Shown here: in pieces, positions 4,155 to 64,000 of the stretch
How the letters are laid out: every line of letters starts with the position of its first letter
How positions within the stretch are numbered: the stretch's first letter is position 1
Program-made: the position numbers and the translations under genes
Source of the DNA: Branchiostoma floridae
Taxonomy: Eukaryota > Chordata > Leptocardii > Amphioxiformes > Branchiostomatidae
Length of the DNA: 64,000 bases
Direction: 5' to 3'
NCBI RefSeq assembly: GCF_000003815.2
Contig: NC_049993.1
Span: 11,597,703 to 11,661,702, forward strand
The notes under the pieces: model-generated
The model's input: only the letters and a program-made list of their open reading frames with translations
Told to the model about the DNA's origin: nothing
The model's database searches: none

Positions 4155-7100
4155 ATGGCTCACAACGGGGCCGCCAGGGAAGACGGGACCAGCTTTCCTG
4201 AGGGAGCAGCCGGCGGCCAGGCAGCACAAGAACAGGCGGCCGGCTTCCACGCCATCAACGTGCACGACGGCAACGACCTGACAACGGCCGCGGCCAGAGG
4301 CGACCTGGAAGAGGTACGGCGACTCTTAGCAGCAGGAGTCGACGTCAACGCACGGAACCAGCACGGGATGACAGCGATACAGGTAGCTCTTAATTATTTT
4401 TCTTTCTTTTAATACTTTTTCTTCGCTCCTAAATGCTGAGGCTGGACGTATTGATTTGATGGTTACGTGAATTCTGTGTGATTTAGAGCAGACGCGTCCC
4501 GAGGACTTGGCAGGGGTTGGGACGCCATACAGAACGCGACGCGCGTGGCGGGCAGCAGGAATCATAACTCACCGCATTTGGTTTACACTTCAGCCCGCGT
4601 CAAACTAACGCTGCCCACACTAGACCAGGGGCCTGTCTGTTAAACAACACGTCCCACTAACGCCTGTTGTGTACCGCCGCGAAATATCACAGCGTAAATA
4701 TCCCTACTCCTCACTTCAAGTCCTTAAACAAGCCTCACTTCTACCAGTGGCACTGACTGACAAACATGCACGAGAACGATTACACGTAACATGGATCACC
4801 GAATGAATGATTGAAAGAGATAAAGGTATTATTATGCTAGGCAACGGTAACACGTTATTATATATACAGTTTTATTTCATTTATCACGAGCAAAATTATA
4901 ATTACGGTGATGTAAACAAATAAATTTCGAATAATTCTCTCACAGGACTCGGTCCGCTGCTCATTGCGATTTGAATGTTTCATGTCACTGGCAGAACGGT
5001 GCCTTACTGTTATTCTCATTCTTCAGCAGTCTTTCTGATGTCTTTTGACAGTCTGTTCATTCATTCATCACAACTGCTGTGTACGTACGCGGACTATTCA
5101 AGCTGAAATCACGAGTCAAACTCGCGCGCATACAAAATCTGACGACACAAAAAACTGTTACAACTGCATTATATTTGACAATTTGTATTCGGTTCGCTAC
5201 GGTCTATAAAGCCAACGTCTGTGAGGTGTTTTCGTCTGTTTTCAATCAATAATAGCGTTTCGCGGGTTGTTGCCTGAAAAACGTCGTCTGTTTTGACCAC
5301 AAAAATGGCGGCTCTGAGCTTGGACGGTGGTAATACTCGTCGCCTCTGCAGTCCCGAGTTCAAACCGTTCGTCCCGAGTTCGAACCACTTGTGATCCATT
5401 CTTTGTCCCAAAAGCCTTGAAGATCTGACTCTTTGAAATTAACACGACAGTCTCCTTAAACGCGTTTTGTTAGATAAAAACATTGATGTTGTCATGTAAG
5501 CAACCGGTGGATTTGTATTTGTGAACCGCATGTGTTTCCATTGAAACTACTGCACATGCGTCCGTACCTGTTGATTCAGGTGTGCTACTGCACTAAAGAA
5601 TCGGTATATCCGTCTGTGGTATTTGTAATCAAAAATTGGGAAGCGTTTTTGTGGATTGCTTGAGCGGTGGCTAGGCGAACACGCTGCCCTATTTTTCTGT
5701 AGAAACAATTTCGCCCAGTTGGCTCCCGCCCAGCGTCCCCTGTTGCTGGCAGGGCGCCAAGAAATGATTCAGCCCGATCGAACGATGCGACCGCGTCCCC
5801 TCAGAACCGCCATGGACGCACTGCAATGTAAATAACGCCTCACCGCCTATCTTTATATCCTATTGGTACATCCGTCTGTAATATCGACTTTTCTACCGTA
5901 TACAAAAACTAACGCTTTCTCTGTTAAGATCTATAGCACACACGTGACGCGCCCTCGTCGACAATTAAGGTTACGTCGGTTGTTAGAGAAGTGACCCCCG
6001 TTTATTTTCGCGGTTTGTGTTCGTTATTGTTATCCATGTAAACAAACCACACCGACACGTGATACGGCTGATTATTTTATCCATATCGGAGGTCGAATGC
6101 GGCAACTCTGGCGTACAAACGACTATACGTCATGTCAACAAATATGGATAAACATAAGTGAATGGTATTTGTATCGGTCAATGCTACAACTAGTCAGTGC
6201 TAAAACCAGATTTGATAAGAAAGAAATTTTAGAAACCGCCAAGTTTCATTCCTATTAAGCCAATACTTAATTCACTAGTGCTTTCAAGGTCATACTTGAA
6301 AGACGTGCCCTTCAATGATCAACTTTGCGCGGACAGCGTCGTTTTGTTTTTGTAGATTTGTCGTGACAAAACAGTGATACGATATTGACTATTGGCCGTC
6401 CCATACCAATAGGTCGTAAACAGTATGTAGTATTGCTGTGCACAGGATATGTACTTTTACGTTTTAAGCTTTGGCACTGGTTGCCGCGTTCCTTACCCAA
6501 GAGGAGGGTAGCTACTCTTGCCATTGTACTCGAACAAACGGCAAATACAACGCAGGGGACCACCAGCTCTGTCTGTAGTATTTACCGACTTAAACAACTG
6601 CTTAAAGACTGAATATCACCCTTTGTAATCATTAACGCGAATCTAGATGATTGACAGTTGAAAATGATGTGGTCTGACAACTGGTAGCCCGGCGTCAACA
6701 GGGTTCTGATCGCCGTGTGTTTGTTGTATCCCGTAAGCTTGCTTGAACGGGTTGTTATAATAATAGTTTATTGCAAATTCTTCCCCGAGGACTACTTGTA
6801 GCTAACATGAAAGGGGACAAACTTGTTGGGTTCAACTTCTTTTCCTGAGACAGTGGAAGACGAAGTGGAAACTTTTTCTATGATGTGTGGGTTCTAGATC
6901 TGTGATACAAATATTGGTGTACTAGCATAGTCGGGCACCACAGGGAACCCTACAAACACTTGAGTGACGTTGAAGTGCTCGACCTGTCGCCCAGACCATA
7001 TCGCTGTCGGTGTAACAGCTCCTCCAAAAGGCGCACAACATTTACTGAAGTCTGAACTCTGTTAGACCTACCTGCAACGGAATCCTACGTGACAGACTGC

Positions 7101-9082
7101 ATGAGCTCTTCGCTGGCAAACATATTCTCCCGAGTGTAAGGACTATTTTCTGGAGTTTGTAACTTTCGTTCAACACAAGTAAACTGCTTGCCTGGAATTT
7201 TATTTTTGTTAGGACTCTTGTCACATTTCATAAAATATATGTGTTTGTTCTTGTTTTACCTCAATGTACAGTCTTTCCTCTGTTGCAAATATTTTTTTTC
7301 TCAAAAAGAGTTTTCTAACAAATTCAAGTTGTTTTAAAAGACTTCAAAATAGTTTTAATCGGTTAATACAATACACAACGTAATTAAGCTCTTGGGAAAA
7401 TGTGCATATTCAGAGAATGGTAAAACCTTGTTAATTTCATGCCAGAATCAAACACCTGATATGATATACTATTAGTTGAAAGATAGGACCTTGGTGGGGG
7501 CAATTCCAATTAGATGATAACACTGTGACTACACACCTTACTGTACCCTGCCTCGAGGGAAAGCGTGATACGTTCAAGTCATTCAATTTGTACATGATAT
7601 ATGCCTCAATGATATATGCCCTGAAACACTATATGTAGATATAGATACAGACACACAGAACTGGCCTAAAAGTGTGAAGAAACAATCTCTCTTCAGAGAA
7701 GAAAGTACAATCAATAGTGCATACAATGTCTTACCAAGGAGTTCTTACTGGTGGATACTGAAATTAAATGGTGTTAAAGGGCGTCCAAAAAGTGGAAACA
7801 AAAGGAGGAATGAAACAGGAATTTTATCCAACTGTACAAGTAATCGGTCCATTTCATGTTTCTTTTTTTGTAGCACGCCTGAAATATTGTAAAACTTGAA
7901 ATTACAGGAGAAACATTTGACCATCCCCCCATAGTCTCATTCCTAGTAAACTACAAACTCACCGTTTTAAATATGCATATTTCGTTTTTTTTAAATACCA
8001 TATTTTCGCCAATCTGGGTTTTCACTTTTCTAGTTTGTATCAAACGTACATAACTATCGTTTAATAAGCTAAATCGTTAAATGTTTAATGTTCCCTGACT
8101 TTTGAAGAAAAAACACTGTCAAGGCCCGCATGTAATTTTTCTCTCACATCGTTAACGGCATGTTGGTGTGTGTACATGTATGTTAAGATTAGGAGCAAGT
8201 TGAGCAACACATACTCTCGTCCCCAGTATCTATCTGACCACTCCGAGTCCTCCCGACTTTCCCACAACCAAACCGGAAGTCGCGCCGACCCCGCCTTCCC
8301 CTCTCCTTCCGCGAAGCATGCCGGATGTTCCGTTCTGTTACAAACAGGTGTTCCGAGAAAAAAGGAGAGAAGAGAACAGTTTTCTTTTGTCAGGAATAGT
8401 TGTCGATTCGTTTATCCTACATTGCGTTCCTTTTCATAACAAGAAAGTCAGGAATACAATACACATTATTACAAAAACTATAACATACAGAATTTCCTAG
8501 TACTTGTAGTAGTAACGTTAGTAGTACAACTGTCATACTAAATTTAGTAATTGCCGTTCAAAACAGTAACTTTTGTCCACCATTTAGTACGTTAATAGGA
8601 AAGTATCTCCTGGACTGTTATGTACTGTTTTCCAATGTGTATTGTTTGGCCTTAAGTTGATAAGTTCGGTGTCCGATAAACTGACGATATTTAACAAACG
8701 AGTCCTTCAAAATGACACATAGAACAAATACAAAAGGCGTGTTTCATTTTTTACCGGCACTTATAGTATAGAAGTAATGCTAGTGCTGTTTTGGGTGACG
8801 CAAACGTACCCTTATTTTTATAACTAACTTAGTAAGGCTGTCGTTTGGTGCTTACTTGTAAATATCTATAATCAAAGTGATGATATACTCATGTTAGGTC
8901 CAACATTACTACATCTACATGTATGCTATAATTAGCTGGAATGGAATTACGGGTACATGTTTGGTCTCACAAAATGACTTTTGAAATACGGTTTCACAGG
9001 ACAGATACGAAGACGACATTCCCACGAAGTCGAAGCCCTACCCATCCAAATACAACTGGCATTGGGTAAAATGTTCTGAAAG

Positions 9083-9158
<76 letters not shown>

Positions 9159-12100
9159 TGATCTATCACTGTTTTGTTGTAAGACAAGAAAGGTATACTA
9201 GCCCGTGGTATCATTATGGCAGAATATAGCTTGGTTGTGGCATATACAGTGTACTTAACATTTACATGTGTACTATGTAGTACGTTTTCCTATAATACTC
9301 AATGCATCGACTGCTTGTAGTAAGGGATCGTAGGCAATAGACTGGAAAGTAAAGATGGGGCTAAACACATAATATGACATGACTCAACTGCTAACGGTTT
9401 CAAAGTCAACAGTTATTCACCTGCCTAGCGGAAAGGATAAAGACANNNNNNNNNNNNNNNNNNNNNNNNNNNNNNNNNNNNNNNNNNNNNNNNNNNNNNN
9501 NNNNNNNNNNNNNNNNNNNNNNNNNNNNNNNNNNNNNNNNNNNNNGCTTAACAAAAAAAAAACGGTTGTTGCTTTTGGCTTCAGTAGTAAATAAACTGTT
9601 AGGCAAATGTTCTGAAAGCTATAAATGCCCTATATCTTGTGTATACGTAACGAGCTTATAACCTAAGACTGTACTTGGACATTCACCGTTAACCCATGCG
9701 GTTGTTGCTTTTGGCTCACAGTAGTAAATAAACGGTTAACATGATTTCACAGCATGTATTCGTCGCTTGTTGCCAGATACTAGTGAGTGTTGTTCTTTTA
9801 TCCTTTCCGTTAGGCAGGAAATATAACTGTTGACTTTGAAACCGTTAGAAGTTGAGTCAAGTCATATTATGTGTTTAGCCCCATCTTTACTTTCCAGTCT
9901 ATTGCCTACGATCCCTTACTACAAGCAGTCGATGCATTGAGTATTATAGGAAAACGTACTACATAGTACACATGTAAATGTTAAGTACACTGTATATGCC
10001 ACAACCAAGCTATATTCTGCCATAATGATACCACGGGCTAGTATACCTTTCTTGTCTTACAACAAAACAGTGATAGATCAGTGCTTGATTCTAATCCGAT
10101 TTTGCACTCCCTCCCAAAGGACACAGCTAAACTGCTCTTTGAATTTGTTATCTCAAAAGCTAGGGATTTGTGGTTGACAACACAAATGTCAAACATTACA
10201 ATTCCACTATGGCTCCAAATCGGGTAGTAGTGACTTTGTATGTACACGATCATGAGGAGAGCCTATTATGATAATACATTGTACCCACACAAATATACAC
10301 ATTGCACCGTTGCATGTGGGGTGATTTTGTTTGGTTTGAGTTTGGGAAAACCACAGAAAATGCAGTGTTCGTTCTTCAATACAGATTGAATCTACACAAT
10401 GCAGTTTGTAGAAAATTTCGTTTGTCCATTCTGAGAAGATGTCAGCTCATTTCTGAAATGTTTTTACATCCAAACTTTGTTATATCTAAACTAACATGCT
10501 TCTAACAATCATCATTGAATTTACTTAATTTTGCATTCTTACTTGTTATTTTGCATCGTTACATACAGTACTACTTGACGTGTAATGAAATATGTTGACC
10601 CTAGAGTTAGCATGTCAAAATGGTAATCATACATGCTATTAACTTTTTGTTAAATAAATAGAACAAGATATAGGAAAAAAAATAAATACAATATATGCAT
10701 GCAGAGTTCCTATATTCCTATTCCAAAAAGATATCATATAAACAAAAAATGTTTTAGAGACAATCGTTCACAAAACGTTTTGTTAGCACTCCTGTTTTCA
10801 ATACTAGTGACAGTGAGCTCGAGGTTTGACTGGTGGATTTAATTAAGGTCGTGGTTGGACGTTATTGGTATCGGCACACAAATGTCTACTCACAGGCAAG
10901 TACTTTATTTGACAAAGTAGAATATAGAACCAAAACGTAACTAGATTAAAGGTCAAAATGTGGACATTGGCGAGTAGTCAAGTCGTCTTTTGAAAATGTC
11001 TCAGTTTTGTGGCCAGCTTACTCAATTATTTGCAGCAACTTTCGTTACATCCGTTACAAATCCGATATTTAATAAGAGCAGTTGTTCATGTTAGCCTTAG
11101 TCTAAGAGGCATTGTTTACATCACTATCATTGTCTGAGTGTGAAACGTTACAATATGCATGGATAACATGAGAACAGTTGATGAGCTATCAGTTATATGC
11201 CTGTACCGTATGTGCACAACTGCACAATACTGTATAGCAGGACGTCCAATGTTCGATAAAAGTTACAAGCAACCGACAGTAATATCATGTTATAACAAAG
11301 GTAGAGGTATACAGTTTTTATGTATTATCTATCGACATGAATGTACCATCGTCCAAAGTAAAGGAGAAAATAGGAAATATTTAGACATATTAACAAGTCA
11401 GAGCTGTTGGCTAGTTAAACTTAGCATGTCCACCTGCCAAAAGCTATGGTATCTATCAAAGTGCATAACTACGTTGGCAAATTGTATCTAAGAGCACTGA
11501 AAGTTAAACGTTTGAAAGGCTTCAAAATGCATTTATTTCTCTTGCAGTTAGACAGTAGATATTTTGACAATTTGACGTTTGATTTGTCATCTAATAAAAA
11601 CAGTTTTGTAAATGCCGCTGTGTTGTAGGAACAATCGAACGTGCATGGTGTAATACAACACTGTTACTGAAACATGTTTGAGTTAGATATCAAAATGAAC
11701 ACGACAATCAAACAGTTGATCTAGTTACTATAGAATACTTGGACAAGGTGATGTTTACACAATGCACTAACAAAGATACGGTGGCCAGTTTTGATAACAA
11801 TGTGTGGTGCTTCTATATGTGGTGTATACTTTGCTGTAGACTGTAAACTTTTGTTCTGCTGCATGATCGTTAAGGATTTCTTCTGTAGAGCAGAATCAAG
11901 CTGATTTTACAGGACTACGCATCCGTGTGTCTGGTCTCGTAAACGACCACAACCTAATGCTAACTCAAACAGGTGGTACAGGGCAACTACACTGCATCCG
12001 ACACATGTATAGATGCTATCTTCTTGTGCTTACCTTGGTGGCAATTTCTAGTTTCTTTTTCAAGTTTCAGATGGCACAAAAGTTTACATTTTTTTGACCG

Positions 12101-13447
12101 GAAGGTCTGGAAACGTTTGGGTCTTATAACGTTTTTCTGTAAATTTATTACCAATGTTTATACACCTGTAGTGTGTACAGTACTAGTAGCCATGATTGAG
12201 GTTAGAACTTAGACAGCGACTTGTTCCGATCCACACATTCACACCGATGTTCAGGATTAAGAATTATAACACCAGCGCGACGTTTCCTCGCGCGTCTAGA
12301 CAGAACCGTTAGATCTAACGGTGCATGTTAGAGACAGTTTGCATTCAAATCTTTCCCAAATCCTTATTCAGTTAGATCTACAGTGTGTTTATTCTTTCGA
12401 GTTTGACTGCCAAATAAACATTCGTCCTAGGCATTATGTTATAGATGTGTTGTTCCAGCTCTACCTATGTAGACAGATATCACAGGTCAAGCGAAACATC
12501 GGCAATCATACAAGATTCACGGGTAAAGAAAAACCATAACTACAGAGATGTTGACGACACTTTTACAGACGTTAAACGTAGGCTGTACACTACGTGACAC
12601 ATTGAAGAACAATGATGTATGTAACAAGGAAAAAAACGTGAAATATGGAAAAGCTTCGGAATTAGAAAAAAAGCTTGTGATCTGCAGGGAAGCAGTACGG
12701 GCGATCTTTGTCGCGTGCTCGTTCGGAACTCTCGAGTCTATCGTGCGTCTAGTTCAGGTTTCCGATTTCACTGATTTCGCTCCAACTTGCTAGTAAAACA
12801 GGGAAGTTGGAACTTTTACATGCTAAGTATATTTTTTCCACATGCGGTGTTTTCGTGTGTGAGGCATCCCCAATTTCAGCCACTTCCAAACTCAAGAATT
12901 TTCTGTTGATCATCCTACACCCGATAATCATATAATGTGTGTTTTTGGAGTGTGTGTGTGCCAGATACTTGTTTGTTGCCAATGCTTCTCGATGATTCCT
13001 TACTTGAGTGCTTACATTGTTCTTTATTTCCCTGGCTGTAATATTTTTATTTGTCATTTGCAGGTGATGGAGTTTGGGCATCACATAATCGCAAAGGAGC
13101 TTCTTGAGAACGGGGCAGACCCGAACGTTCGCGACGTAGAGACCGGTCTGTCACCTGTCCACGACGCCGCGCGCGACGGCTGGGAAGACACCTTGAAGCT
13201 CCTGTTCGAGTACCACGCGGACTTAGACGTCAAGGACCTGCAAGACATGACTCCGGCACACCTTGCTGCCGAGAAAGGTCACGTCAGAATCTTAGAATTC
13301 TTACGTGCCAAAAGTACGGACCTGTGGGCAAAAAACAGGCGAGGACAGACGCCGCGAGACCTCGCGAGAATCCACGGGAAGACGGACGTGACCGCCTGGT
13401 TCCGAGGCAGCTTTCCCGAGCAGCACGCCGAGCAACAAGGGCAATGA
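4155..13447 (+). CDS. CDKN2: INK4-family cyclin-dependent kinase inhibitor (CDKN2-like), two coding exons, 203 aa
   Basis: Coding exons are 4155-4382 and 13064-13447. Exon 1 ends in a full CAG codon before GTAGCT; exon 2 follows TTTGCAG. The junction reads AIQ|VMEFG, the same place and phase as the intron in vertebrate p15, p18 and p19. The protein has an Ala/Gly-rich N-terminus (about residues 1-37), then five ankyrin repeats (about 38-195). INK4 signatures visible are [34 protein letters not shown] and [16 protein letters not shown]. Five repeats match p18/p19 rather than the four of p15/p16. Family members bind CDK4/6 and block cyclin D-dependent phosphorylation of RB. An in-frame ATG at 4056 would add 33 residues; I chose 4155 because the extension has no family likeness. 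The neighbour is MTAP, convergent. I cannot assign orthology to one vertebrate paralogue; the gene is probably pro-orthologous to all. Confidence 0.93.
9084..9157. repeat. (TA)n microsatellite, about 37 units
   Basis: An uninterrupted TA dinucleotide run that ends exactly where the left arm of the adjacent inverted repeat starts. Confidence 0.97.
9157..10082. repeat. Inverted repeat (about 285-bp arms) enclosing an assembly gap
   Basis: The left arm (9157 to about 9441) begins ACTGATCTATCACTG. The right arm (about 9798-10082) is its near-exact reverse complement and ends CAGTGATAGATCAGT. Between the arms lie 100 N and about 250 bp containing a 39-bp direct repeat (9563-9601 and 9699-9737, core CGGTTGTTGCTTTTGGCT). 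The word AAATGTTCTGAAAGCTATA occurs both left of the TA run (9069-9087) and inside (9605-9623). This could be a foldback transposon or a mis-joined inverted segment around the gap. Confidence 0.85.
9446..9545. other. Assembly gap of 100 N
   Basis: A run of exactly 100 N, a conventional placeholder, so its true length is unknown. It interrupts the centre of an inverted repeat, a structure that commonly breaks assemblies. Confidence 0.99.
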
Positions 13448-16400
13448 CGTCACGGGAACGTTAGAACTCTTGTGAGTTTCTCATTTACATATTTTTCCAA
13501 TTTCTCGCCAACCGAGGGAAGCTGCACGGCCGCTATGTCGGGCTCTAGTTGGACCTGACACAGAACGGTCTAACCTAAGGGAGGCCATGCCCTCCCCAAT
13601 TACAAACACAAAATGTCGTTCACGGCTCAGCGGCTTTCAGTTGAACGTAAATTACCTGTGATTAGAAAGATCTCCAACAGTCGGCAATATCGTATATTTT
13701 AGATATTTGTTGAGTCACATGTTTGGTGTCCCCTCTACAGACGACAGTTTCACTTTACAGCTTAAAACTGTTTTTAGAAGAACTGACCTGCATTTTATCA
13801 TCATTGTACTACATCAGAAAAGATGACTATGAGGCTCTTAACATACAGGGCCCTACAATCACCTTGTGTGTTCAACTAGCCGTCAGTAGATTTCAGACAG
13901 AAAACAATAGAACGGCCAGTACATAATTCTGACAAAAAGATAATTATGTAAGAGAAAACAATGACTGCTGCTTTCAATGATACTGCCAAACTAGCATTCG
14001 GAATTATTGTACAATCGGAGACTAACACATGTTTAACTGAAGTGTATAGCCTACAGTCGATATACCGACGACGCTGTTTAGTTTACATCCTATTCCGCGT
14101 GTGTAGAAACAGGCTTGGAAACTCGACATTGAAGGGAAATGCGTCAGGAAAAAAAGTCGATAAGAGTTGAAAAACTTGGTCTGGATCGTTTTCCCTTCAA
14201 ATCACTGGGTCCTAGAGACGGTATCGGGGAACGGTGGTTCTCGTTTGGTGTAGGTCACAGCGTGTCAGGTTTCCGACCGACGCTACCCTCTTGTAGGGCA
14301 TTAGATAATAGACACGGAGTGGCAAACTCTTGAGTTGACGCCGGAGTCATATTTGAAGCTGTCACAGACAGTTGAGAGGCAGGGCAAGGGCACTTCTGGT
14401 CTCAATATGGATTAAGGGCCGTTGATTGCTCCTAGCAGTGTGGGATATGTCAACAATCTAATCAGCGTTGTCGCACAGGGCTAGACAAGAGTTCGTTACT
14501 CGTACAGCTGATTCGTACCCACCCTCCACAGTAGCACGCGTATCAGTGTGAGAAATCGGGCTGAACGCTTATCAACAAGAGAAGCCACACGCCTTATTTG
14601 GACATGGTTACCAGTGTCTTGATTAGCGTTGTTTAAGACTGAACAAACGAGCAGTCACAAAGAAAAGGAAACAAGTTTGTCGTTCGAGTCACAGGCAAAC
14701 AAAGAACTAGCAGCTTGTGGAAGTATTGGCGGGTTGAACAGACGCGAAAGTTGTATCAACAGGAGAGAACACGTTAGTGCAGGACGCTGAAGTGTTGTTT
14801 TGGGAAAGTCGACCACATCTGTTAGAAGGGCAGACAGGTAGGGGGCTGTGAGTGACAAGGGGGAGGGGAGGGTCGCGCGCCCGACACGTGTCCGGCCACT
14901 CACACCCGCTGGTAGCTGTAAACCGAGCCAGGGCGGCCAGACGGACGGCTCGCCGGCCCACGCGTCCTGTGGGGCGCCCTGGCCGAAGTTCGTGGCTTCC
15001 CTTAGCAACCGTCTCATCCCTCCTGCTGACGTTTGTTCGCTTTCTCAGAAGTTTGTCGTTCAAACACCAGCCACGCTGTACGAAACCAGAGCTCAAAAGA
15101 TGGGCCTTACCCCACAGCCTGTAACGAAAGAGCAGGGGGGTCTTAAGAGGTTCAAAGGACCGTAAAAAGGTCAATCATGTGGCGACAAAGTAAACTTTCT
15201 CAAGTCTTGTCGGCGTGGCGTGTGGCAGACGTGTGTGCGGGTAGGCCGGGTCAGGTTACTCTACAGACTTCTCCACAAACGTGTTTATCGGCAGGAATGA
15301 CCCTGCTGCCCCTGTGTTTGTAAATCCTACCCCACTCCGACTCCGCCAACCTTTTTGTCTGAATTAAGAACAGAAAAACAGAAGTCAGGAGGGCGGGGTT
15401 AGTGCACTACTATAGTCCGTCTGGAGTTGTGAGGTGGGCCCCCTAGATCGAGACCCTACCCTAGCCACCACTAGGCCTTCCTACTGGGGGTACGGGGATC
15501 GTAGAAGTCGGCAAAAAATCAGAAAATTGGCCAGGGGGTCAGTCTACGCTTATGTTCATGTATCCCCTCCGACCGACCAACTCCTCTGGTAGCAAAACTC
15601 CCCTGGCAAATCCCCCCCCCCCCCTATACTAGCCAGCGTAGTCGGTCAGGTAGAGACTAACTCTACCCATTAACTGTTACCCTTTCATGAAATGAAGGTC
15701 TGTTTTCAAACAGCTTTCGCGATTGGCCCCCGATAACGACCGTTGTTTACCCGCGCTCCAGTGACGTCGACCTTCCCAGCCTGTTTCTCGTGTTACACGC
15801 GGAAAGTACCAGTTTCCGCCGCACAGGTCAAGTTCACCGGCACAGGGTGTCGCAAACGGCCAGTATCAGCAACGTCAACTTCAAGGACACTTGTAGTGTT
15901 CTAAACATCCTTTATACTTGACAGTTAACGGCCAAATTTTGAAAAAGTGGTTCGGCTGTGGCATCAGTCAAAGTCAGATCCTTAGTGAATAGATTTCTTG
16001 TATAATATTTCACCTCTGCTGGCAGATCGTAGGCTATATTATAGAATCATATGTTTAGAATATGACAGTTTACAGTAAAAGTCACAATTTCTTGACAAAT
16101 GTAGCCGAGATACTGTAAACAAAGGTCTTCTCAATTGATGCAAAGACGTATTTTACAAAGAAATCTCAATCCTACCGACAGTTCACTGAATTTGAGATGG
16201 TAAGTAAGAGGGTGCTAGTAGCATGGGCACGGATATCGTATGGTACACCAACCGGAACAATATTTTCCCAACCGCCCACAAAGCACCGCGTATTAAGTTA
16301 TCATCCGGCATTGAAAGGTTTCGGACCTCGAAAAATCGAATTAGGCACGCTCTAATAAAAGGACTGACACCATGAGTTATGGGGCAGCCGTCTCGGTTTG

Positions 16401-18183
16401 AGGTAAAATGGCTGGTCTATGAGCCTTAATTGAAAGTTGATGGACTACAAAGTGCGAACTGGGACGCCGTATTTGTTTACCTAGTCTCTTAACAATTACC
16501 AACGTGTTCTACCGGGGCATTTATATTCGTTACGGTCGGCTATACCTACATGGCCGGGGCTTTCAGGATTCTTGGATAGGAAGGCAGACTTGCTTTTTTT
16601 CTTGATCTGTGATTTTTTTTTGGTCACCAGTAGTGAAATAGAAGGATACGATTACAAAATCTAGTCAAGTCTGAAGAAATTATGATATAACAGTGGCAAC
16701 CGGATACATGAGCGACAATTTGGGATACTGTATGGTAGAAGCCTCAAAATTGACGGAACAGAAACTAGATAAGTACGTCCATAAAAACTCCCTGCGTTTC
16801 AAGTGAACCATTGTATTGTTTGACCGAAGACATTATGTACTAGTAATGTCTTTGGTTTGACAAAGGGTTTTTATGTCAGACTAATTAAGCAGAAAATGGA
16901 ATTTATACCGTGTCTAATTCTTTCGTTTTCGCCATGGTAAACCATGAAGACTGGTTGGCAGGTGCTTTCAGTCTCACTGCCATATGGTTCCAAGCACTCC
17001 CCTCCCCAACCCAAAAATACTCACCGTTTAGCCATAGAAAAGCACAAAACCAAAACAACATCTGTTAAGTTTGGAAAAAGCACAACACGACTCAAGTCAA
17101 CCGTGACCAAGAAAAAATCACATCTCAAGTCTGAAAGTGGCACAAGTTCCTTATTGCGACAACACTAGGTCTCCCTTTTTCGTACCACCCTCGTCAATGA
17201 ACTGTCTGTTTATATACCACTGTGTGGTTTGATTGTTATATAGACAAACGGAATAGAATATTACTTGTCTGTAGAAAGTACAAAACCTGAACAACCTTCC
17301 TGATCTACATATGTATACATGTTCTAAGTAAACTCACACTGGAAAATCTCTTGTTTTGTAAGAATACACTTGAAAGACGAATCCATTCTCTCTCGTAGTG
17401 GAGGGGCGAAATTTGCTGTGTTTGGGACGGACCATTATTTGCTGGGGGAGAAAATCATGGTTTGATGGCACAAAATCAACACTCAAATTTATCAGTGCCC
17501 TAGAATCTTAAGGCGGCGTTATCTATAGCTAAATGTTCCTCTCTGGCAATTAAGAGAGCAATCCTCTTCAAAACCAACCCCAACAGATAATGGTTTGGCC
17601 GGTGATAGAAGCTGAACAATGATGAATATGTTAAACTTAAGGATACAGTAATTGTTACATGTATGTTAGTTGTTAATCAAACTACATCCATTCCATTCAT
17701 GGTAATCGCTGCTTTGTTCATAAATCATTGAAATTATGGCATTTTGGCAATATGTACAGTTTCTTGTTCTTTGTTGCACTTCTTATATCTTGTTTAAGTT
17801 CATCAGTCGTTTTGATGATGCCTTGATAATATGTATTACACCAAGCATGCTAGACAATTCCTTTATTTATAACTATGCTCTTCAAACTACAACTGTACAT
17901 ACCGTTCTCATTCACTATTACATGTACTTGTAATGTTCTGTACGATAGTTCAATAGAAAATGTACAAATGCGCCATGTTTCGTCATAATTCAAAGACGTA
18001 TATTAATAAATTATTGAATTAGAAAGTCTGAGTCTCTTGTAGTGCATTATTTTTAGTAATCGGATCACTCATGGTCTGAGAAAGTAAGCGGTAAAGTTTA
18101 AATGATAATCATCTGGTGTATTTTGCCATGAGATGTTGATTTCCAGGTTTTCATGAAATAGTATTAGCAGAGGTTACTCTAAG

Positions 18184-18324
18184 TACACCAAAACGAGTTA
18201 CTCAAGCAACTGGATATGATTTTGAATACTGTCTGTCACTTACGAAATTTAGTGGATACTGTCGGAAACGACTGGTCGTTCCCAAAATCATATCCAGTTG
18301 CTTGAGTAACTGATTTTTGGCGTA
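18184..18324. mobile_element. MITE-like element, TIR core AGTTACTCAAGCAACTGGAT (complete copy)
   Basis: The terminal inverted repeats are about 40 bp. The left end starts TACACCAAAAC and runs through AGTTACTCAAGCAACTGGAT; the right end is its reverse complement and ends TTTTTGGCGTA. TA stands at both outer edges, consistent with a TA target-site duplication as in Tc1/mariner-type elements. The short interior has no coding capacity. Related copies lie at 57916-58064 (complete) and at 28158-28192, 54947-54992 and 59190-59290 (partial). Confidence 0.75.
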
Positions 18325-20084
18325 TCTTATTACATGGATGCCAAACCTTCATCACCATTACTTTAGGTAGATTATACGTCATGATTATTCTGGAACCTTC
18401 ATTCCTATACAACGTAATCTAGCTATACATTGTCGTCACAAGGATGATGTAAACGTTTTGATATGTTTGGGAGATTGTTTTACAATGAACAAATCAAGAC
18501 GCAATACATACTAGAGAATTTTCTGCTGCAGTACCAAGTTCACATACCAGGGGGCACAAAATTGACATTGACCTTCGTCCAAATATCATCGTAATCCATC
18601 CAGAAGTTCTTGAATTATACTGACTATAAAAATCCGGAAACACAAACAGACAGACACACCCAACTATATGTCCATTTTTCGTGGGGATAAATATTGAAGC
18701 AGGGTTGGTGGGGAGTGTGGGCGAATAAGAAAGAGAGATGACCGCTTTCATCCTTTATCATGTCCTGTGTCTTTCCTGATTTAAACTATCAGATGGGTAC
18801 ATAAACGTTATCTTCCACACTGTCTTGAGTACGAGTCAGCGCATCTCACAGGTGAGAAATCCTGAGGAACACCCACCTGAGAGGACCTGGGCATGTCTGG
18901 ACAGGTAACACACCTGACACCTAAAATAGCTCACCTTTAGTCGCCAATGTTTGTGATAAGTCACCACCGAGACAGAAAACAACAGGACACAGATTGGAGG
19001 TCAGTAAAAAACAAACAAACAAAACAGCATATCATTTTTCTAACACATATGACAAGAAATCAATGCAAATAGCCCCGATACAAGTCTACCAAGTTACTGA
19101 CGTGATACAGTTTTCAAATACTTCGTCATACTGTTCAGTCTGTTGTGTTGTGTTGGATTTGAAAATATCCCCAAACAAATGGTACGTGTGAAACACTTAC
19201 CTTGACTGACATTTGCCATTAAAGGCGATGTAAATGTGCTTTTCATCCTTGTGCTAATTTGGCTCAATCAAAGCTCGTTTACCCTTTTCCAATTTGTGCG
19301 TTGACGTCATGACCTTTTCGTGATACGTGCTTAGAAGAAAGTGAATACTAGTAATGTCAGTACTAAAAACGAAAAAAACGTCAAGAAAGGGACAGAACAT
19401 GGTGACCATTTTTATGGGAAGATATTCTTTAAAAAATGATAGAATCCAGTAGAATAAATGTCTAGCATCATGTTGATTTGTCTTTCGTGAGTTTCGTCCT
19501 AGTTCAGTATGATGCAAAATTTCTACATAGAGTATGTCAAAAACGTTTTTCATAAAGCAAAAATCAGGAGCTGTCTTCTCATCCTAATATTTACACATAG
19601 CAAGACCAGACTTGTCAGTACCAGACATTATAGACATGATGACGATCACATTCCAAAAGGGGCATTGTCAGCTATTTGTGTCAGCCTTTCTGGCAATGTG
19701 GCAAACCTGGTAGTGCCGCACAAAAGAGCTGATGGACTTGTGTTGGGAAATATGGTCAAAGAGGGCATGTCCAGGCATGCCCTAATGACGCATGTGCCAA
19801 AAGGTTCGGGATGGCAATCACCGTAAAGTTGATTGTTCTCATGGATAACGTGCCACGCCCAGCCACTCCTACCTGTGTAGAAGCGCCCCCATTTGACTGA
19901 AGGACAAACTGCAGAATGACCATACAGGTAAGACACAGTACCATTCATACAGCCTTGGAAGCAGTAATTTCACTGGATGATATTTATAGGCCTGCTATTA
20001 AGTTACCTAGTCGTACAATTATGAAGTCTGTTCAGTAATTGGTATTCAGATACAACTATAAAGTCTCTGTCACTGAATACAGTA

Positions 20085-20745
20085 ATATTTACACACATAC
20101 CCCAGTGCAGTCCTTGGTACTGAATGGCATTCACATACACATTGGCACTGAATTGTATTCATACACAAATGTACAGTCCCTGGTACTGAACTGTATTCAC
20201 AAACACACATTTTACAGCCCATGGTACTGACACACAACTGTAACATTACAGTCTCTGGTACTGAATGGTATTCACACACAATTGTACAGTCCATGGCATT
20301 AAATTTAATTCACACACAGCTGTACAGTGCCCGGCACTGAATGACATTCACACACAACTGCACAATCCCTGGCACTGAACAGCATTCTCACACAACTGTA
20401 TAGCTGGTACTGAATGGTATTCACACACACTACTGTAACACTACAGTCCCTTGTGCTGAATAGTATTCACATGTGCACACACAACAGCAACATTTCAGAC
20501 CCTGGTACTGAATGGTATTCACACACACACAACTGCAACATTTCAGACCCTGGTACTGAATGGTATTCACACACACAACTGTAACATTTCAGTCCCTGGT
20601 ACTGAATGGTATTCACACACACAACTGTAACATTTCAGTCCCTGGTACTGAATGACATTCACACACAACTGTACAGTCCCTGGCAATGCATTCATTCATT
20701 CATGGTATTCACACACAACTGTAACATTACAGTCCCTGGTATAGT
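20085..20745. repeat. Degenerate minisatellite, unit about 45-60 bp
   Basis: About a dozen imperfect tandem units share the order CAGTCCCTGGTACTGAATGG, TATTCACACACA, ACTGTAACATT. Spacing varies because the CA-rich segment and the ACTGTAACATT segment are sometimes lost. The most regular units lie at about 20500-20650. It is non-coding; open frames here are by-products of the repeat. Confidence 0.9.
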
Positions 20746-21501
20746 AATATACTAAAACATCAGTTGACTTGACAAATTTTGTTGATTAACACTAACTAAT
20801 GAAAGACAAGCAATGACAATAACAAAAGGAAAGAAATGCAAGTTGCTATGCTTTTATCTTTTTAAGAGCAATACTTCAGAAACCACTTAAGCTTATGAAA
20901 AACCTTAATCTGTTAAATATATCCATGAACACATACTATACTATACCAACCATACTAACTGGAAGTTTGCACAATAAGAGAATATTATCTCTTGTAATCT
21001 TGTTGAACATGTAATATGAAAAGTATAATTTTGCTATTGCTTTCCTCAATATCCTTATCTTCTGTATGAGGATATAATTTTGCTAGAGTAGCTGATAACT
21101 AATAGCTTTACCTCCCTTATAAATGTGTACATGTAATATAACCACACAACAGACACCTTATAAAGTTGCATTTTCCCACTTTGACTGAAACATAAAGATA
21201 ACTTAAACTAATGACAACTTAAAATCAAAACACATTGTTAGCAATTTCCATTTCTGATTTGAAAGCAGTTTTGCTACATAAGAATATTGTGCAGAAATTT
21301 GATTTATTGACTCCCTGAATCACTGTGTATTGTAGAGCAGTGTTTGCCATTATTGCTTTGTTCAATCTAGCAGTTCATTGCCTCTGATAGTCATAGTAAC
21401 TATTTTGACACTGTGTCTAGTCTATCACCATATCTGGCTTTAATATTGCTGTTAGTTTAGGCATACTCTGTGGTGTTGTGTTGTCATAACAGTTTTGTTC
21501 C

Positions 21502-21620
21502 CCAGGACCCAGAGGTTCTGGTTTGAATCCTCTAACATGCTGCCAATATTGTGCCCTTGAGAAAGGCACATTAACATATCTTTACTCCCTTCACTCAGGT
21601 TCAGGTGTAAAAATGAGTAC
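21502..21620 (+). repeat. Dispersed repeat module (GAGGTTCTGG..GTGCCCTTG..AGGCAC type)
   Basis: The string CCCAGAGGTTCTGG, followed by a GGTTTGAATCC B-box-like stretch and GTGCCCTTGAGAAAGGCAC, recurs at 26990-27066 and, reversed, at 27985-28066. This is a multicopy, possibly tRNA-related retroelement segment. The boundaries are approximate. Confidence 0.55.
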
Positions 21621-21932
21621 CTGATTTTGGTTGAGAAGATAAAGGCAGCGGGAGGAGAAGATTGGACTCCACCTTCCAATACCATGCCCTAGATACAGTA
21701 GATAAACCATCAGAAGGGGAGACAACAATTTGGAAGTCAGTTGACATTGATAGAATTTAGACATATAACAACTCTGGTTCAGAGTTATGTAACAGACCTG
21801 AGCCTTTCTAATTTCCCATATTATATAAATATTGTGAAGTGAAGTGAGAATGCCTTGATGTCTTTGGTCAAGGCAGATAAGACCTTTTAAAGTGAGGTAC
21901 AATGAAGGCAGAGCCTGTTGCTGTTGACTAGG

Positions 21933-24900
21933 TTATCCTTCAGATGGTGGCAGCATGATAGAGCTGGAAACTGTCACCTGAAAAACACAGGAGAAAATGT
22001 TTAAGTGTATTGTAACCTATAGCAAAAACAACTGATTTCAACCTTACCTGCAACCAGCTATTATCCACTATTTGACAATTCATTCATAAGTAATTACATA
22101 AGTATATCAGATAAGTGATTTTTCGAATGATGGACTGAATAAATGTTGTTGGTGTAGCGAAACACTCTCAACAGCATATACGAATATCAATGCAAGCCAC
22201 ACAAGAAGTGCAATGTATAACTATAAAGATATATAGGTGTGCAATAAAAACATTTCCACATACAGGTGTGGGAATGTAGGGCTGTCCACAGATTAGATAG
22301 GCAAACAGGGAAGTATCACAAGCATCACACAGTGCAGTGGTACAATTCTGCAGCTCAAAGCAGTACCTTGCTGTGGCACCATGTACTGAAGTGTTAGTAC
22401 CCGTATCCTGCATGCAGGTTGGAGATATTACTGACGGAGGTTGGATTACTGAACTGGTGACAAAACCCTAGGAAGAGACCATATAAACTGCCAACGTTCT
22501 TACTTACTGTCACCGTAAAATTACTTTGGAATTTGAAGGGATTTTGTTACTTCATTAATTGTACTTGGTCTGATTACTAGAAGTTGATTCATTCAATAGA
22601 ATAGAGAATGTGCACATATGCAGAGCATGTCAAATACAAATCAATATCAAAATCAAATTCAACAATACTATATTGTATATGCAGAGCATGATTTACACTA
22701 AATTATGCTTCAATAACTACCACACACCATTTAAATTTATCAGTTTGTAGATCTTTATTATCAGTGATTAGGTATTAGGCTGAGTTTGTCATGAAGAAAC
22801 ATGACTGTAGATCCAATGACATCATTCATTCATCTTGATGATCAGTCAATGCCATATATGGTGATACAATTTAAATGAACTATTATTGGTACATGACTGT
22901 AAACCCCCCTTTTCCACTACACAGCTATCGATGAATGATCGTCAAACAAGCATAACTGGATCTGTAAGACTTTTGACGTTATAATTGGAATATAATGCAC
23001 AACACAACATATAACAGCATGATCTAAAAGACAACAAAACATAAAAACACTGGTTCTTTATCTATGAAATTTTTTGGATGACATATTGTTAGCTTAGGAG
23101 CTACCCACAATGGATACCCACATTAGATCTTACTGCCTGCAGACAACAAGAGAGTTTCAAACTTTGACAGTTGTAACCTTACCCTGTTCTCCTCCAGCAC
23201 AGCTGACCAGTCCCGCTGGGCAATCTTGGGAATGGCAGACTTAAAGATGCGGACTCCCTTCTCAGCATTGCCCTTAAACACCTTCAGCACAGCCTCAACA
23301 CTCACCTAGAACAGAGCAAACACATGTCACTCAAGCTTTCTGGATATTGAATACCAGGGCTCGAAATTCATTTGGGGAATAGGTGCACCCAACCTAGAAA
23401 ATTGGGTGCACCAAAATATTTTTGGGTGCACGGTGCACCATATCAGATAAAGTAGAATATCAGAATAACCTAATTCCAAACCTACTAAATTAGTACTAGT
23501 AATTTGAACGGAGCTCTTCAGAAATCGGAAGTACTATGACAGTCATTTTATTGTCTTTCTAACACATAGACGTCAAGAATATGGTGTTTACTTAGTATAC
23601 TGACATCTTAACATACATAAGCCTATAAAAATATTTGGGTGCACCCTGTGCGCCCACAGAAAAAAATTGGGTGCACAGCCCCAATTTTGGGTGCACCTGG
23701 GTGCACAAAACCCCAGTATTTCGAGCCCTGAATACGAACAAGGCCATAAGCCTTTTCATGAATACATCCACACAGGCACGCATACCACATCCACACACAC
23801 ACACACACACACACAGACACACACACCAAACAAAGACATGACAAAGACATTGCTAAAATACACATACATGGTGTCCTGGATCATCCCTCCAACAATCATA
23901 ATCTGTTGCCATGGCAACTGCAGCGTAGCACAGTCCCGCCTCCTTGGCCAGGGCGACCTCCGGCACCGTGGTCATGTTGATGACATCACCGCCCCACATG
24001 CGGAACATCTTGCTCTCCGCACGCGATGAAAAGCGAGGCCCCTCGATGGTGACCATGGTGCCGCTTTCATGGTGCCTGATTTCCAACTCCTTGCAAACAT
24101 CAATCAGTATCTGGATGGAGAAAAACAACATGGATAATAAAACATACCAAAAATCCCCGTGGAATATTGTGTGCATTTGGTTGGTCATGAGTTCAATCCT
24201 GGCTGAGTCATACCCAAGACATTAAAAATGGTTCGTACTGTTTTCTCTGCTTAGTACTCAGCATTCAGAAGAGAGTATGGAAGTTGAACACACACCACTA
24301 CCAGTGGACTAGTCCCCTGCTGTAGTGATTAAACAAAGTTGTGTGGCCCAGGAATACTGAAACAGAGAAGGGCGTTGCCCTATGCACCATCTGGTGCGGG
24401 AAGGACTTTAACTAACTAACTTAGTTCAAGTTTACAGAGGACCTACTTTTCTGGTGTGAGGACAGAAAGGTGTGTCCATCGGAAGGTGACACACACCCAG
24501 AGGACTGCCAGGGTTGCCGTCGTAAAATGTTGTGGCACGTTTCGTTGTCCGATCAATGAACTGGTCCAGGATGACCATGTCTCCTGGATGGATGTCTTCT
24601 CTGGGGTAAGATAAAGGGATAAATAAATAAATAAAAACAAAGGGAGTAGATAAATCTGCAATGTAGCTCCACACAACACCTAAGTTTGCATGTGAGGAAT
24701 AACACAATAAACTTCCAAAAAAACAATTCCTGAAACTGATAAAGTGAGAGACAAGTACAACATTAAATTAGATTAGACATCTAAGTGTACAATAAATTAT
24801 ACAAATCATTCATATAGTCAGATGTTTTCTGAAGCGTCTGATTCTGTTAGAGACCTTATTTGGTTGTTTGATTTAATTTGCATAATGCAGCTACTAAGAT

Positions 24901-27900
24901 GTCTAACCTTTATCAAACTTTACCCTGGAAACCAGCCTTTTAGCCAGGGCTGGCACAGAATCTGTTTGGCAGCTAAGGCAGGTTTTTTCGAGGACCTTAG
25001 ATAAGCACACCAGGGATTTGTCATGCAGGGAGTGTTTGCTGGCCTAACTAGTAGTATTAGCTGCCGAACAGATTCTCTGCCAGCCCTGGGTAAGTCTGGT
25101 TTCCAAGGTACATATAGTTCAGCTCAAATGAAAAAGTCCTCTCCTCAACTGTGAAACACATCACTGAACACAAAGCACGTACCTGAGCGACCCGCAGGCT
25201 GTAGAGACGATCAGGTGAGTACAGCCCTCAGCCTTCAGGGCGTGGACATTGGCTCGGAAGTTTATGTTGGTAGGCATGACAGTGTGGCCTCGCCCATGCC
25301 TGAAATCATGTTCAAAAACACGCTTCACAATGTATATACTATGGATGACAACTTTTAAGAGATTATAAGAATGGAATACTATCAATGCTGTAGACTAGGA
25401 GACTGCTGCCTACTCCTGTGTCAGGGACCCCAGCAGCAGTATAATCAAATACTAATACTGGATACTACTACTACTGTACTGCTCTTTACGAATTTTTTCC
25501 CCCTGTCAACAAAAAGTCACATAATATATCCATAGCTTTTTAAATTACATGTATCCTGTTATCTATAGTGTTAACCAACCTACCAACAATGCACAGCAAC
25601 AAATGCTGATATAAACATTACCTCCTTGGAGATATTCTTCAATTTCAGCAATTACAGCATTTCCCAAAGAGTTTATCTCACCTGGCCAGAAGGACACATT
25701 CCACACCTCCGACATCACCCAGGATCAGGGCATCAGACGGCTGTTACAAATATCAATGGTTTATTTCATTTGTGTGAAAAGCTATTCTGTTGCTACTGTA
25801 TATCTGCTGTTTGCATACTTTGGCACATTGATTTGCCAGAATTACAGCTTTTTTTAGGCTTATAGCAGTCAGTGGTAATAAAACATTTCATATACATTGT
25901 AATATGATTTAACCAAGGACGTTACATAACATCCTTGATTAACAACTATAGGTGTAGATTTATGGTAGATTCATGAACCATTTTCCATTCATTTAAGTTT
26001 GTCCTAGGCTTTTACATCTACACTACCAGGTATATACAACACTACACTTTGCTCTTTCCTCTTGAATCAGAGTCCCCTAAATCAAGGAGGTTATATATCT
26101 CTGATGATGTGTCCAAGAATGTGTCACTGTTCGCACTACCAGAGTGTATTCTAGAGTAACCTCCTTGCCTAAATTCATCAACTAACTCCTCTTGATCCAA
26201 GAACAAGAAGCCTGTCAGTTTTCAGATGTCATGAATAAATAGTGTCAGTCTTAGCACTGTGTGAAAAATGTTGGAAAGTATCTCATAATGTATATTGACC
26301 TCTGACCTTTCCATAGGGCGTGTCCACATGCTTCTCTCTCCTGTTGTCCAGGATATCTGGGTTGTCCAGTCCTGAACCTCCAATAATGCCGATCTGAAAA
26401 AAGTTGTAAAACTAAAAGTGTGCGTCGCCAAACTGACCATGCCAAATGGTCTTGCCTATTGGTGTAGTGGTTATCAGCGTTAGGCTTGTGAGCTGACGGC
26501 CTGGGTTCTGCACGGGTTCAAATCTTGGGACTGTTCATACTCGCCCCTTCTGTTTCAAAGTTAACAAATCTTAATGTCGTATCTTAATCTTCATTAGTGG
26601 CCATCGCAAAGGTCCAAATGTCTCAACTCTCACTTTTGGCGAAATATAGAAATTCAAATTCAAAACATTAAGATACCAGGGGTGTGAAAATCCATGGGAA
26701 ATCTCACAATAACGTTATAATAGAAATCTCGATCAATGCTGCTCGTGAAATCAAAAACAAAGGCCTGCAATTGGAAGCAATTAGCAAATGAATCTTATGA
26801 CATGTATGGGGTTTACGGAAAAGGCTGGCCTGTCTACCTGGGCTGTCTACCTGGGCTGTCTACCTGGGCTGGCTATCACGTCAGGCTACTTGGACCTACG
26901 AAAGCCCATTGGGACAAAAGCTGTTTTAGCAGTAGGGATTGTTTGTACTCAATAAAGAAGCTATGTGTGAAACTATTGTGCGTGTTACATAACCCAGAGG
27001 TTCTGGGTTCAAATCAGTTGATATGCCAGCGATCTTGTGCCCTTGGGAAGGGCTATAGTATTAACACGACTTATCGGCTGATTGGATTAGTCTTAATGTA
27101 AGAAAGGGGGCAGATGTTGTGGCCCCGGGTTCTTATTTGGAATTGCTGCCGAGAGTCTAAGACTGAAGGGAAGAACAACACGCAGAGACACAGGCCATTT
27201 TCCGCACACACACGGACTGCTTGCTGGGGAGCTACATCCTCGTGTCTGCACTCCACGCACGACTGACACAACTGATCTCTCTTTCTCCCCACCAGCAAGC
27301 TTGTCCTGTTTATTCATCCAAATTCACATATTCATACATATTATAGAGGTGACAATGTTTTTGAAGTCCCTTTGTTGTTCAAGATATCAAAGGCTGAGCG
27401 ACTGCCATCTATCTGTTAGTTCTGTCTATGGCTTTGGTGTGAAACAATTACACCTGGCACTAGAGGAGACGAACGTTCGTTTGCATACGACACTAATCAA
27501 AATGCAAATCTCCACACTTCACACTCTTGCTACAGCTCTGTGGCACTAATCAAAACAACAACCTAACTTTAGCCCTACCAAATAATACACAAAAAGTATA
27601 AAACACAGTGAAGTTCATTTTGCCCTACTTACATTAAGACTGGTGGCTAGTTGGTCAAAGGCGTCCAGGAGCCTTTCTTTAGTGGCTGTCATGGTCCAGG
27701 CTTCTGCGCCATACATAAGGATCGACAATTGAATTGTGAGGAGCTTAAAATAATCGTTGCTAGAGGGTCTGGAACTGCTGCCATTCGGTGCTAACTCAGG
27801 TGACCTCAATACGACAGCAATTACCCCAGGTGTGGCCATAGGACTTAAGGTTTTGAACCACTTACACTGGGAAGGAAGGACCCCTAGTCTTTTCCGTAAG

Positions 27901-28605
27901 TGTGGTGGGTTCTTTGCCCTATCTGAGGGAGGGCCCTTACCGAAGCTAGGTACTCTTTTCTCTACCCTAGTGAAGGGAGGAAAGTCGTGTTAAGAGCCCT
28001 TCCCAAGCGCACAAGATCAGTGGCATATCAACAGATTCGAACCCAGAACCTCTGGGTTATGTAGCATACACAACTCCTTCAAACACAGCTACTTCACATA
28101 CAGCTCCTTCACACACTGCCACTTCACATAGCTCATTCACATAATAACACACAGATCCACCAAAAAGTAGTTACTCAAGCAACTGGATATGGTTCACCGT
28201 GACAGATCCTTCAAACAACCCCTACTGCTAACATAGCTTTTGTCCCAATGGGCTTTCGTAGGTCCAAGTAGCCTGACGTGATAGCCAGCCCAGGTAGACA
28301 GCCCATGTAGACAGACCAGGTAGACAGCCCAGCCTTTTCCGTAAACCCGACATGTATGATAGCTCTATCCAAAGAGCGTTTTATCAACTGTTGATATGAA
28401 AATGCTCTTTGTTCTATCTATTATCAAAGGCCAAGGAGGCCTGTCTTGATATTTAAAATTATGTTGACAGGAAATTATCACGATGATGCTACGCTTGTAA
28501 TTAAAGAGTAGAGTAGAGTAGAGTTCTTCGGTTTGGTAGGAGCAAGGAGCTCCATATAGCCGCAGACGTTACCTTTATTTTCCTTGGCGCTGATTTGGCT
28601 TCCAT
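21933..28605 (-). CDS. MTAP: S-methyl-5'-thioadenosine phosphorylase, eight exons, 286 aa
   Basis: Exons in order are 28605-28573, 26393-26307, 25740-25682, 25299-25183, 24600-24447, 24110-23868, 23305-23183 and 21977-21933. All have GT/AG borders and the frame is kept throughout. MTAP phosphorolyses methylthioadenosine to adenine and methylthioribose-1-phosphate (methionine salvage, polyamine by-product clearance) in the cytosol. Visible are [10 protein letters not shown] (12-21; Ser18 where the human enzyme has Thr18), ARHGRGH (59-65), STACGSL (92-98), [17 protein letters not shown] (167-183), INMTTVPE (194-201) and MATDYDCW (217-224, with Asp220 and Asp222 that select the purine). Numbering matches human MTAP almost residue for residue (human 283 aa). 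Exon 1 is tiny (11 codons, ending KIK) as in vertebrates. The terminal exon (residues SIMLPP) is preferred to read-through of exon 7 because it restores the family's C-terminus. The gene is convergent with INK4 and divergent from the first CAPSL gene. Confidence 0.95.
23355..23730. mobile_element. Foldback element with CAGGGCTCGAAAT termini, copy 1 (MTAP intron 6)
   Basis: It starts CAGGGCTCGAAATT and ends ATTTCGAGCCCTG, and is flanked by a perfect 5-bp duplication AATAC (23350-23354 and 23731-23735). Both subterminal parts are crowded with GGGTGCAC/GTGCACCC words in opposite orientations, so the element folds back on itself. It has no coding capacity. A second element with the same ends is at 59327-59651. 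Confidence 0.85.
23793..23823. repeat. (CA)n microsatellite
   Basis: A CA dinucleotide run in MTAP intron 6, just right of the foldback element. Confidence 0.9.
24255..24413 (+). repeat. SINE/LINE-like tail module (MTAP intron 5)
   Basis: It contains two small hairpins in series, GGGCGTTGCCC and GCACCATCTGGTGC, followed by GGGAAGGACTTTAACTAACTAAC. The ending is short and simple, like the 3' end of a non-LTR element or SINE. Assignment rests on pattern only; only one copy is in the window. Confidence 0.35.
24921..25110. mobile_element. TA-flanked MITE, TIR CCCTGGAAACCAG (MTAP intron 4)
   Basis: The left end is TA-CCCTGGAAACCAG and the right end is CTGGTTTCCAAGG-TA. Subterminal stretches AGCCAGGGCTGGCACAGAAT and ATTCTCTGCCAGCCCTGG also pair, giving about 55 bp of imperfect inverted repeat at each end. 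TA on both sides suggests a TA target duplication. It has no coding capacity. Confidence 0.75.
26429..26560 (+). mobile_element. tRNA-derived SINE, copy 1 (MTAP intron 1)
   Basis: It opens AAACTGACCATGCCAAA, then has an A-box-like TTGGTGTAGTGG and, about 45 bp on, a B-box-like CGGGTTCAAATC. The same opening and boxes occur at 63687-63830, so this is a repeat family and not a functional tRNA gene. The right boundary is approximate. Confidence 0.7.
27651..27746 (-). pseudogene. Non-LTR retrotransposon reverse-transcriptase remnant
   Basis: About 30 codons on the minus strand read [20 protein letters not shown] followed by RLLDAFDQ. This matches the conserved C-terminal part of LINE-type reverse transcriptases, where an LYGxExWT motif is followed some ten residues later by RLxAFxx. 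The frame is not extended by related sequence on either side, so it is a fragment. Confidence 0.65.
28158..28192 (+). mobile_element. Partial MITE copy (one terminus only)
   Basis: Contains CACCAAAAAGTAG followed by TTACTCAAGCAACTGGATATG, matching the left end of the complete element at 18184-18324. The partner terminus is absent. Confidence 0.65.
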
Positions 28606-63991: not shown

Positions 63992-64000
63992 GTGAGAACG

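Follow-up and report, generated by a model that had tools for sequence, protein, structure and literature searches.

A stretch of 64,000 nucleotides from the genome of the amphioxus Branchiostoma floridae (C15:11597703-11661702, hereafter the window) contains a single INK4 gene that is adjoined head-to-head by FAF1 and tail-to-tail by MTAP. This arrangement, FAF1(-) INK4(+) MTAP(-), was interpreted as probably being the undivided chordate INK4 neighbourhood, as it stood before the vertebrate genome duplications, with the human arrangements then arising through unequal loss and persistence as described below. C15 comprises 21,514,203 bases of a searched genome of 513,431,437 bases in 431 contigs. 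Published work describes 19 chromosomes in B. floridae, with BFL15 derived from a single chordate linkage group (PMC7269912), and we infer that C15 is BFL15. The locus was composed as follows.

2057-2019, minus strand: FAF1 coding exon 1, 13 codons and then a GT donor; the gene runs leftward out of the window.
2058-4154, no strand: the 2097 bases that separate the start codon of FAF1 from that of INK4; GC content 0.471, observed/expected CpG (CpG o/e) 1.12 (whole window, 0.67).
4155-4382, plus strand: INK4 exon 1 (coding), with a GT donor.
4383-13063, plus strand: phase 0 intron of INK4, which interrupts the QVM motif between its first two residues; contains a 100-N gap at 9446-9545.
13064-13447, plus strand: INK4 exon 2 (coding, including the stop codon), with an AG acceptor.
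13448-23122, no strand: interval between INK4 and MTAP; no protein domain, CpG depletion from ~19.5 kb.
14600-15250, no strand: GC-rich block, GC content 0.547, CpG o/e 0.90; may be a regulatory element or part of the 3' region of INK4.
28605-28573, 26393-26307, 25740-25682, 25299-25183, 24600-24447, 24110-23868 and 23305-23123, minus strand: MTAP, seven exons, from a GT/AG model and homology.

The two INK4 exons were joined in phase 0 to give a product of 203 amino acids with no internal stop. Comparison with solved structures gave the highest total scores to multi-repeat ankyrins and designed repeat proteins, and for the full-length protein some designed proteins equalled or exceeded the totals of the INK4 family. 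Judged by single stretches, the best natural match was p18INK4c (1ihb; 135.5 bits, residues 39-189), followed by p19INK4d (129.0 and 127.6 bits). A piece of 67 amino acids spanning the intron was matched in a single stretch by four p19INK4d entries (70.9-73.4 bits); the best single stretches of the five other chains with alignments reached 18.2-26.7 bits, and p18INK4c was not among the 60 matches listed for this piece. The gene therefore belongs to the INK4 family by a co-linear match across the ankyrin domain that exceeded the single stretches of generic ankyrins. INK4 proteins are distinguished by a shortened second ankyrin repeat and by conserved QVM and HDAAR motifs; both motifs were invariant between the amphioxus protein and three human INK4 sequences, and structure alignments placed a one-residue gap after QVM relative to other ankyrins. 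The structure predicted without an alignment (mean predicted local distance difference test score, 48.9) was too poor for use or for a fold search. By analogy with other INK4s, the protein most likely binds CDK4/6 through its five ankyrin repeats.

Amino acid identity between the amphioxus protein and the three human INK4s was 42.5-48.5%, and among the human proteins themselves it was 37.8-45.6%; these levels are as expected for a pre-duplication relative. INK4 is single copy: in their own genome the exons scored 288 and 152 bits, and the next of 104 matches, drawn from the 150 candidates scored out of 248, reached 65 bits with 36% identity. That the locus might reflect an assembly error or foreign, vertebrate DNA was suggested by one feature, the 100-N gap in INK4 intron 1, but this was judged extremely unlikely. 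The flanking exons are each unique in the genome and join in frame, so the gene itself spans the gap; there was no other N run in the window, so that FAF1 exon 1 to INK4 exon 1 and INK4 exon 2 to MTAP are each free of gaps; and the locus lies inside a contig of 21.5 Mb. Identity of 42-49% to the human INK4s argues against vertebrate contamination.

When INK4 exon 2 was read in the ARF frame, a stop was encountered at 13105-13107, after 13 codons, and a human-type overlapping ARF is therefore absent. Exon 2 was not open in this frame from its 5' end, as dual coding of INK4a and ARF would have it; exon 1-beta was not sought, and an ARF ending just inside INK4 exon 2 may exist. Beyond the stop, an open frame of 118 codons in the ARF frame (13108-13461, plus strand) overlapped exon 2. 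Its 113 codons inside the INK4 coding exon exceeded 99.2% of 10,000 synonymous shuffles, which were run for one of the two alternative frames inspected.

The MTAP model comprised 291 amino acids and six GT/AG introns; its last 19 residues are uncertain owing to a possible eighth exon. It matched human MTAP (1cb0) over residues 7-274 (E = 1e-118) and scored 303.1 bits against the TIGR01694 MTAP equivalog, for which the cut-off is 274.85. MTAP was single copy, since a tblastn search at 1e-3 matched it to none of the six PNP-superfamily loci on C6. The initial annotation had described a five-ankyrin INK4 gene on the plus strand followed by a full, convergent MTAP gene on the minus strand, and the gene models and searches confirmed this, both genes being intact and single copy. 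It had also found nothing recognisable between them. This held for protein domains: a six-frame Pfam scan of 13448-23122, made to see whether a further coding gene lies there, returned no family at E 0.01. Overall, Pfam scans took in the window apart from the introns of INK4 and MTAP, two of the minus frames between 28.6 and 43.6 kb, the minus frames between 43.6 and 52 kb and the plus frames between 47 and 61 kb; of ten flank stretches, they took in parts of two and the minus strands of two others. In the window as a whole, the gathering score was reached by none of the Rfam families. Within the interval, the GC-rich block begins ~1.2 kb past the INK4 stop. It was considered as a possible repeat, and this was rejected when a search of the genome returned the block itself alone.

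FAF1, a third gene that the initial annotation had overlooked, was recognized from its domains. The UBA_4 exon lies at C15:11596994-11596914 (1.2e-05), and the left flank contained, on the minus strand, PF21021 (8.1e-24 and 2.2e-16) and UBX (7.1e-12); UBA, FAF1-specific and UBX domains followed in order on one strand. Given the position of its first exon, FAF1 is therefore head-to-head with INK4. A six-frame Pfam scan of positions 1-4154 identified no families.

Human FAF1 stands head-to-head with CDKN2C at 1p32, and human MTAP stands tail-to-tail with CDKN2A at 9p21; CDKN2C and CDKN2D are not known to have an adjoining MTAP. The amphioxus order FAF1(-) INK4(+) MTAP(-) therefore unites both human pairs around one INK4 gene. 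Like CDKN2A/CDKN2B at 9p21.3, the amphioxus gene is tail-to-tail with MTAP and is interrupted by an intron at Q|VM. However, amphioxus has one five-repeat INK4 rather than CDKN2A plus CDKN2B and lacks a human-type ARF frame, and its INK4 has FAF1 as the second neighbour, while relatives of DMRT and ELAV are ~2 Mb away and not next in line. The head-to-head pair at 1p32.3 (FAF1-CDKN2C) has the same orientation as in amphioxus, but in amphioxus the series continues with MTAP, which is not known to follow on human 1p32. The suggestion that the INK4-MTAP linkage is older than vertebrates, made in the initial annotation from the convergent pair, was thereby strengthened: the genome has a single INK4, and FAF1 is now added in the human FAF1-CDKN2C orientation.

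Published accounts of the human and mouse loci describe MTAP-ANRIL fusion transcripts at human 9p21.3 (PMC4941330), which agree with opposite directions of transcription for MTAP and CDKN2A/B; a mouse model of 9p21.3 in which the segment between Mtap and Dmrta1 is deleted (PMC9701143); and CDKN2C and FAF1 lying close together and being mostly co-deleted in myeloma (PMC3996928; PMC5386330). Among the literature matches listed, there was no paper on amphioxus INK4-MTAP or FAF1-INK4; most subscription journals fell outside this coverage, and such a paper may be in print.

It could be argued that INK4-MTAP or FAF1-INK4 was joined independently in amphioxus and in vertebrates within one linkage group. 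Both INK4 neighbours match in the human orientation, however, and the chance of two specified neighbours occurring in specified orientation was ~1e-06 under random order (~1000 genes assumed; the comparison was post hoc), which makes coincidence very improbable. In its favour, a common linkage group is expected anyway, and the order of genes within groups is described as 'largely scrambled' between amphioxus and vertebrates (PMC7269912).

The descent of the undivided neighbourhood would have proceeded as follows. One ancestral FAF1-INK4-MTAP triplet would have been copied in the two vertebrate genome duplications, after which unequal gene loss would have left FAF1-INK4 at 1p32, with CDKN2C, and INK4-MTAP at 9p21, with CDKN2A/B; the 19p13 copy, with CDKN2D, would have retained wider neighbours. 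The most likely reason for the persistence of FAF1-INK4 is a candidate bidirectional promoter, short and rich in CpG. The adjacency of INK4 and MTAP would have survived for want of a breakpoint between them, and not through co-regulation. Breakpoint-free inheritance, combined with unequal loss after the vertebrate duplications, suffices to explain the linkage.

The initial annotation had suggested that shared regulation possibly keeps INK4 and MTAP adjacent; this might act, for instance, through enhancers in 13.4-21.9 kb serving both genes, and the distribution of CpG bears on it. CpG depletion is a footprint of germline methylation. CpG o/e was depleted in the introns of FAF1 (0.44) and MTAP (0.38), in MTAP coding sequence (0.52) and in exon pieces of PRKCSH (0.41), but undepleted in the FAF1-INK4 gap (1.12) and in INK4 itself, where coding sequence reached 1.10 and the intron 0.94. 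Synonymous shuffles gave the same contrast: MTAP coding sequence contained 32 CpGs against 50.1 in shuffles, none of 2000 being as low, while INK4 coding sequence contained 62 against 59.9. The shift to MTAP-like depletion occurs at ~19.5 kb, 3.6 kb past the MTAP stop. A tandem-repeat array was located at 20143-20683, and adjacent CpG o/e was 0-0.1 in four bins of 500 bases (20001-22000). From base composition, the germline chromatin of INK4 therefore appears to be in another state than that of MTAP, and INK4 shares its CpG-rich stretch with the start of FAF1, not with MTAP.

This contrast led shared INK4-MTAP regulation to be demoted. The proposal is favoured by an adjacency and orientation like those of human 9p21 and by the unique GC-rich block 1.2 kb past the INK4 stop. 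Against it, INK4 is undepleted and MTAP depleted, with the switch lying between them, and CDKN2C and CDKN2D, which are not known to adjoin MTAP in human, indicate that not every INK4 gene needs the link. A preprint reports that MTAP is acted on, over a distance of 269 kb, by enhancers in the risk haplotype at human 9p21.3 (PMC12668014), which also counts in its favour. The CpG contrast argues against simple co-regulation of INK4 and MTAP, although a shared enhancer is compatible with it. With the two genes in opposite states of depletion, and with either neighbour lost in the human paralogues, shared regulation was not supported; it is the less likely reading on this evidence, and we consider it improbable. 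The gap between FAF1 and INK4 is the better regulatory candidate, as a putative bidirectional promoter. Such a pair was defined by divergent transcription starts ~1 kb apart or less and by a shared CpG-rich region.

Beyond the triplet, two further groups of genes were recognized in the window.

30297/30363-44654, plus strand: a tandem series of three EF-hand genes (at ~30.4, 38.6 and 43.9 kb), from EF-hand matches; reading of the frames suggested that they are calcyphosine-like (CAPS/CAPSL).
52186-60246, minus strand: PRKCSH-like (glucosidase II beta) exons, from PF12999, PF07915 and PF13015.

The EF-hand trio sits directly to the right of MTAP. Among the PRKCSH-like matches, PF12999 exceeded its cut-off once (3.2e-09) and fell below it once (2.4e-07), PF07915 was at the cut-off (8.2e-06) and PF13015 was below it (0.0022). 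Calreticulin (CALR) was identified in the left flank, beyond the window (PF00262, best 1.3e-21). Two identical open frames of 77 amino acids (50946-51179, plus strand, and 51515-51748, minus strand), ~0.34 kb apart, are arranged as an inverted repeat and perhaps represent a mobile element. The right end of the window (61750-64000, plus strand) holds a gene with a TLDc domain and then a GTPase-like stretch, IFI44-like by eye, and the right flank (C15:11667931-11681783) contained two near-identical methyltransferase-like coding stretches in tandem, by frame reading.

These neighbours invite comparison with human 19p13, which carries CDKN2D, KRI1, PRKCSH, ELAVL3, CALR and CAPS. Relatives of the members other than INK4 are also found on C15: the locus lies between CALR and PRKCSH, MTAP is next to the CAPS-like genes, and KRI1 and ELAV are 2.2-2.4 Mb away. 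The human genes are spread over several megabases, with MTAP and FAF1 elsewhere.

Wider linkage was evaluated with seven families, chosen by their human map positions near INK4 genes; DMRT and ELAV were searched first, and the other five were fixed before searching. Six of the seven were on C15, FOCAD being the exception. For the five listed in advance, four were on C15, which is 4.2% of the genome (binomial P = 1.5e-05). All four matches to DMA-type DMRT were on C15, at 1.18, 1.21, 13.58 and 13.59 Mb. The best five of 22 ELAV/Hu matches were exons at C15:13.82-13.84 Mb, representing one clear ELAV/Hu gene; the remaining 17 were weaker RRM matches, 16 of them on other contigs. A single clear ELAV/Hu gene, like the single INK4, fits an invertebrate chordate. 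KRI1 was at C15:14.00 Mb and SPATA6 at C15:7.89 Mb; PLAA, at C15:11.81 Mb, was separated from the window by 147 kb. A second cluster, at C15:13577555-14003914 (~430 kb, and 1.9 Mb from INK4), contained two DMRT matches, the weak CAAP1 match, ELAV/Hu and KRI1. Published work on vertebrate synteny describes dmrt4-elavl2-caap1 and dmrt5-elavl4/faf1 (PMC7689362); DMA-type DMRT, CAAP1-like and ELAV/Hu matches within 260 kb of C15 echo the first order, whereas amphioxus FAF1 departs from the second, being ~2 Mb from the DMRT-ELAV cluster and beside INK4 and MTAP.

Several observations weigh against the view that an undivided ancestral neighbourhood has been preserved here. The comparison involved a single invertebrate genome, set against human gene order and orientation taken mostly from general background. 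FOCAD, a human 9p21 gene, was on C2; the CAAP1 match at C15:13.79 Mb was weak, scoring 29.2 bits where the cut-off was 25, and contained one stop. In-frame stops also occur in the matches to KRI1 and SPATA6, as is expected where matches cross introns. As regards the candidate promoter, the start codons of FAF1 and INK4 are 2.1 kb apart, wider than a compact bidirectional promoter, and there was no strict E2F consensus in 2058-4154. The state of CpG is an indirect measure, tandem repeats at 20.1-20.7 kb add to the dip, and the CALR exon pieces (0.65) and EF-hand/CAPSL exons (0.10-1.23) fall outside a clean division into two classes.

A bolder proposal is that FAF1-INK4-MTAP has been a functional triplet for more than 500 million years, that the vertebrate paralogues each kept parts of it, among them a bidirectional promoter of FAF1 and INK4 and a 3' boundary on the MTAP side, and that both cancer co-deletions, of FAF1 with CDKN2C and of MTAP with CDKN2A, trace to one constrained ancestral locus; this is doubtful, and is offered tentatively. 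Conserved microsynteny is already known as a phenomenon, and the protein families concerned are ordinary. What the undivided arrangement would provide is a concrete pre-duplication layout for the surroundings of a tumour suppressor, a region that human cancers delete very often. It would account for FAF1 and MTAP, different partners in collateral loss, adjoining different human INK4 genes, and amphioxus, with its one INK4 gene, makes the idea of shared regulation testable.

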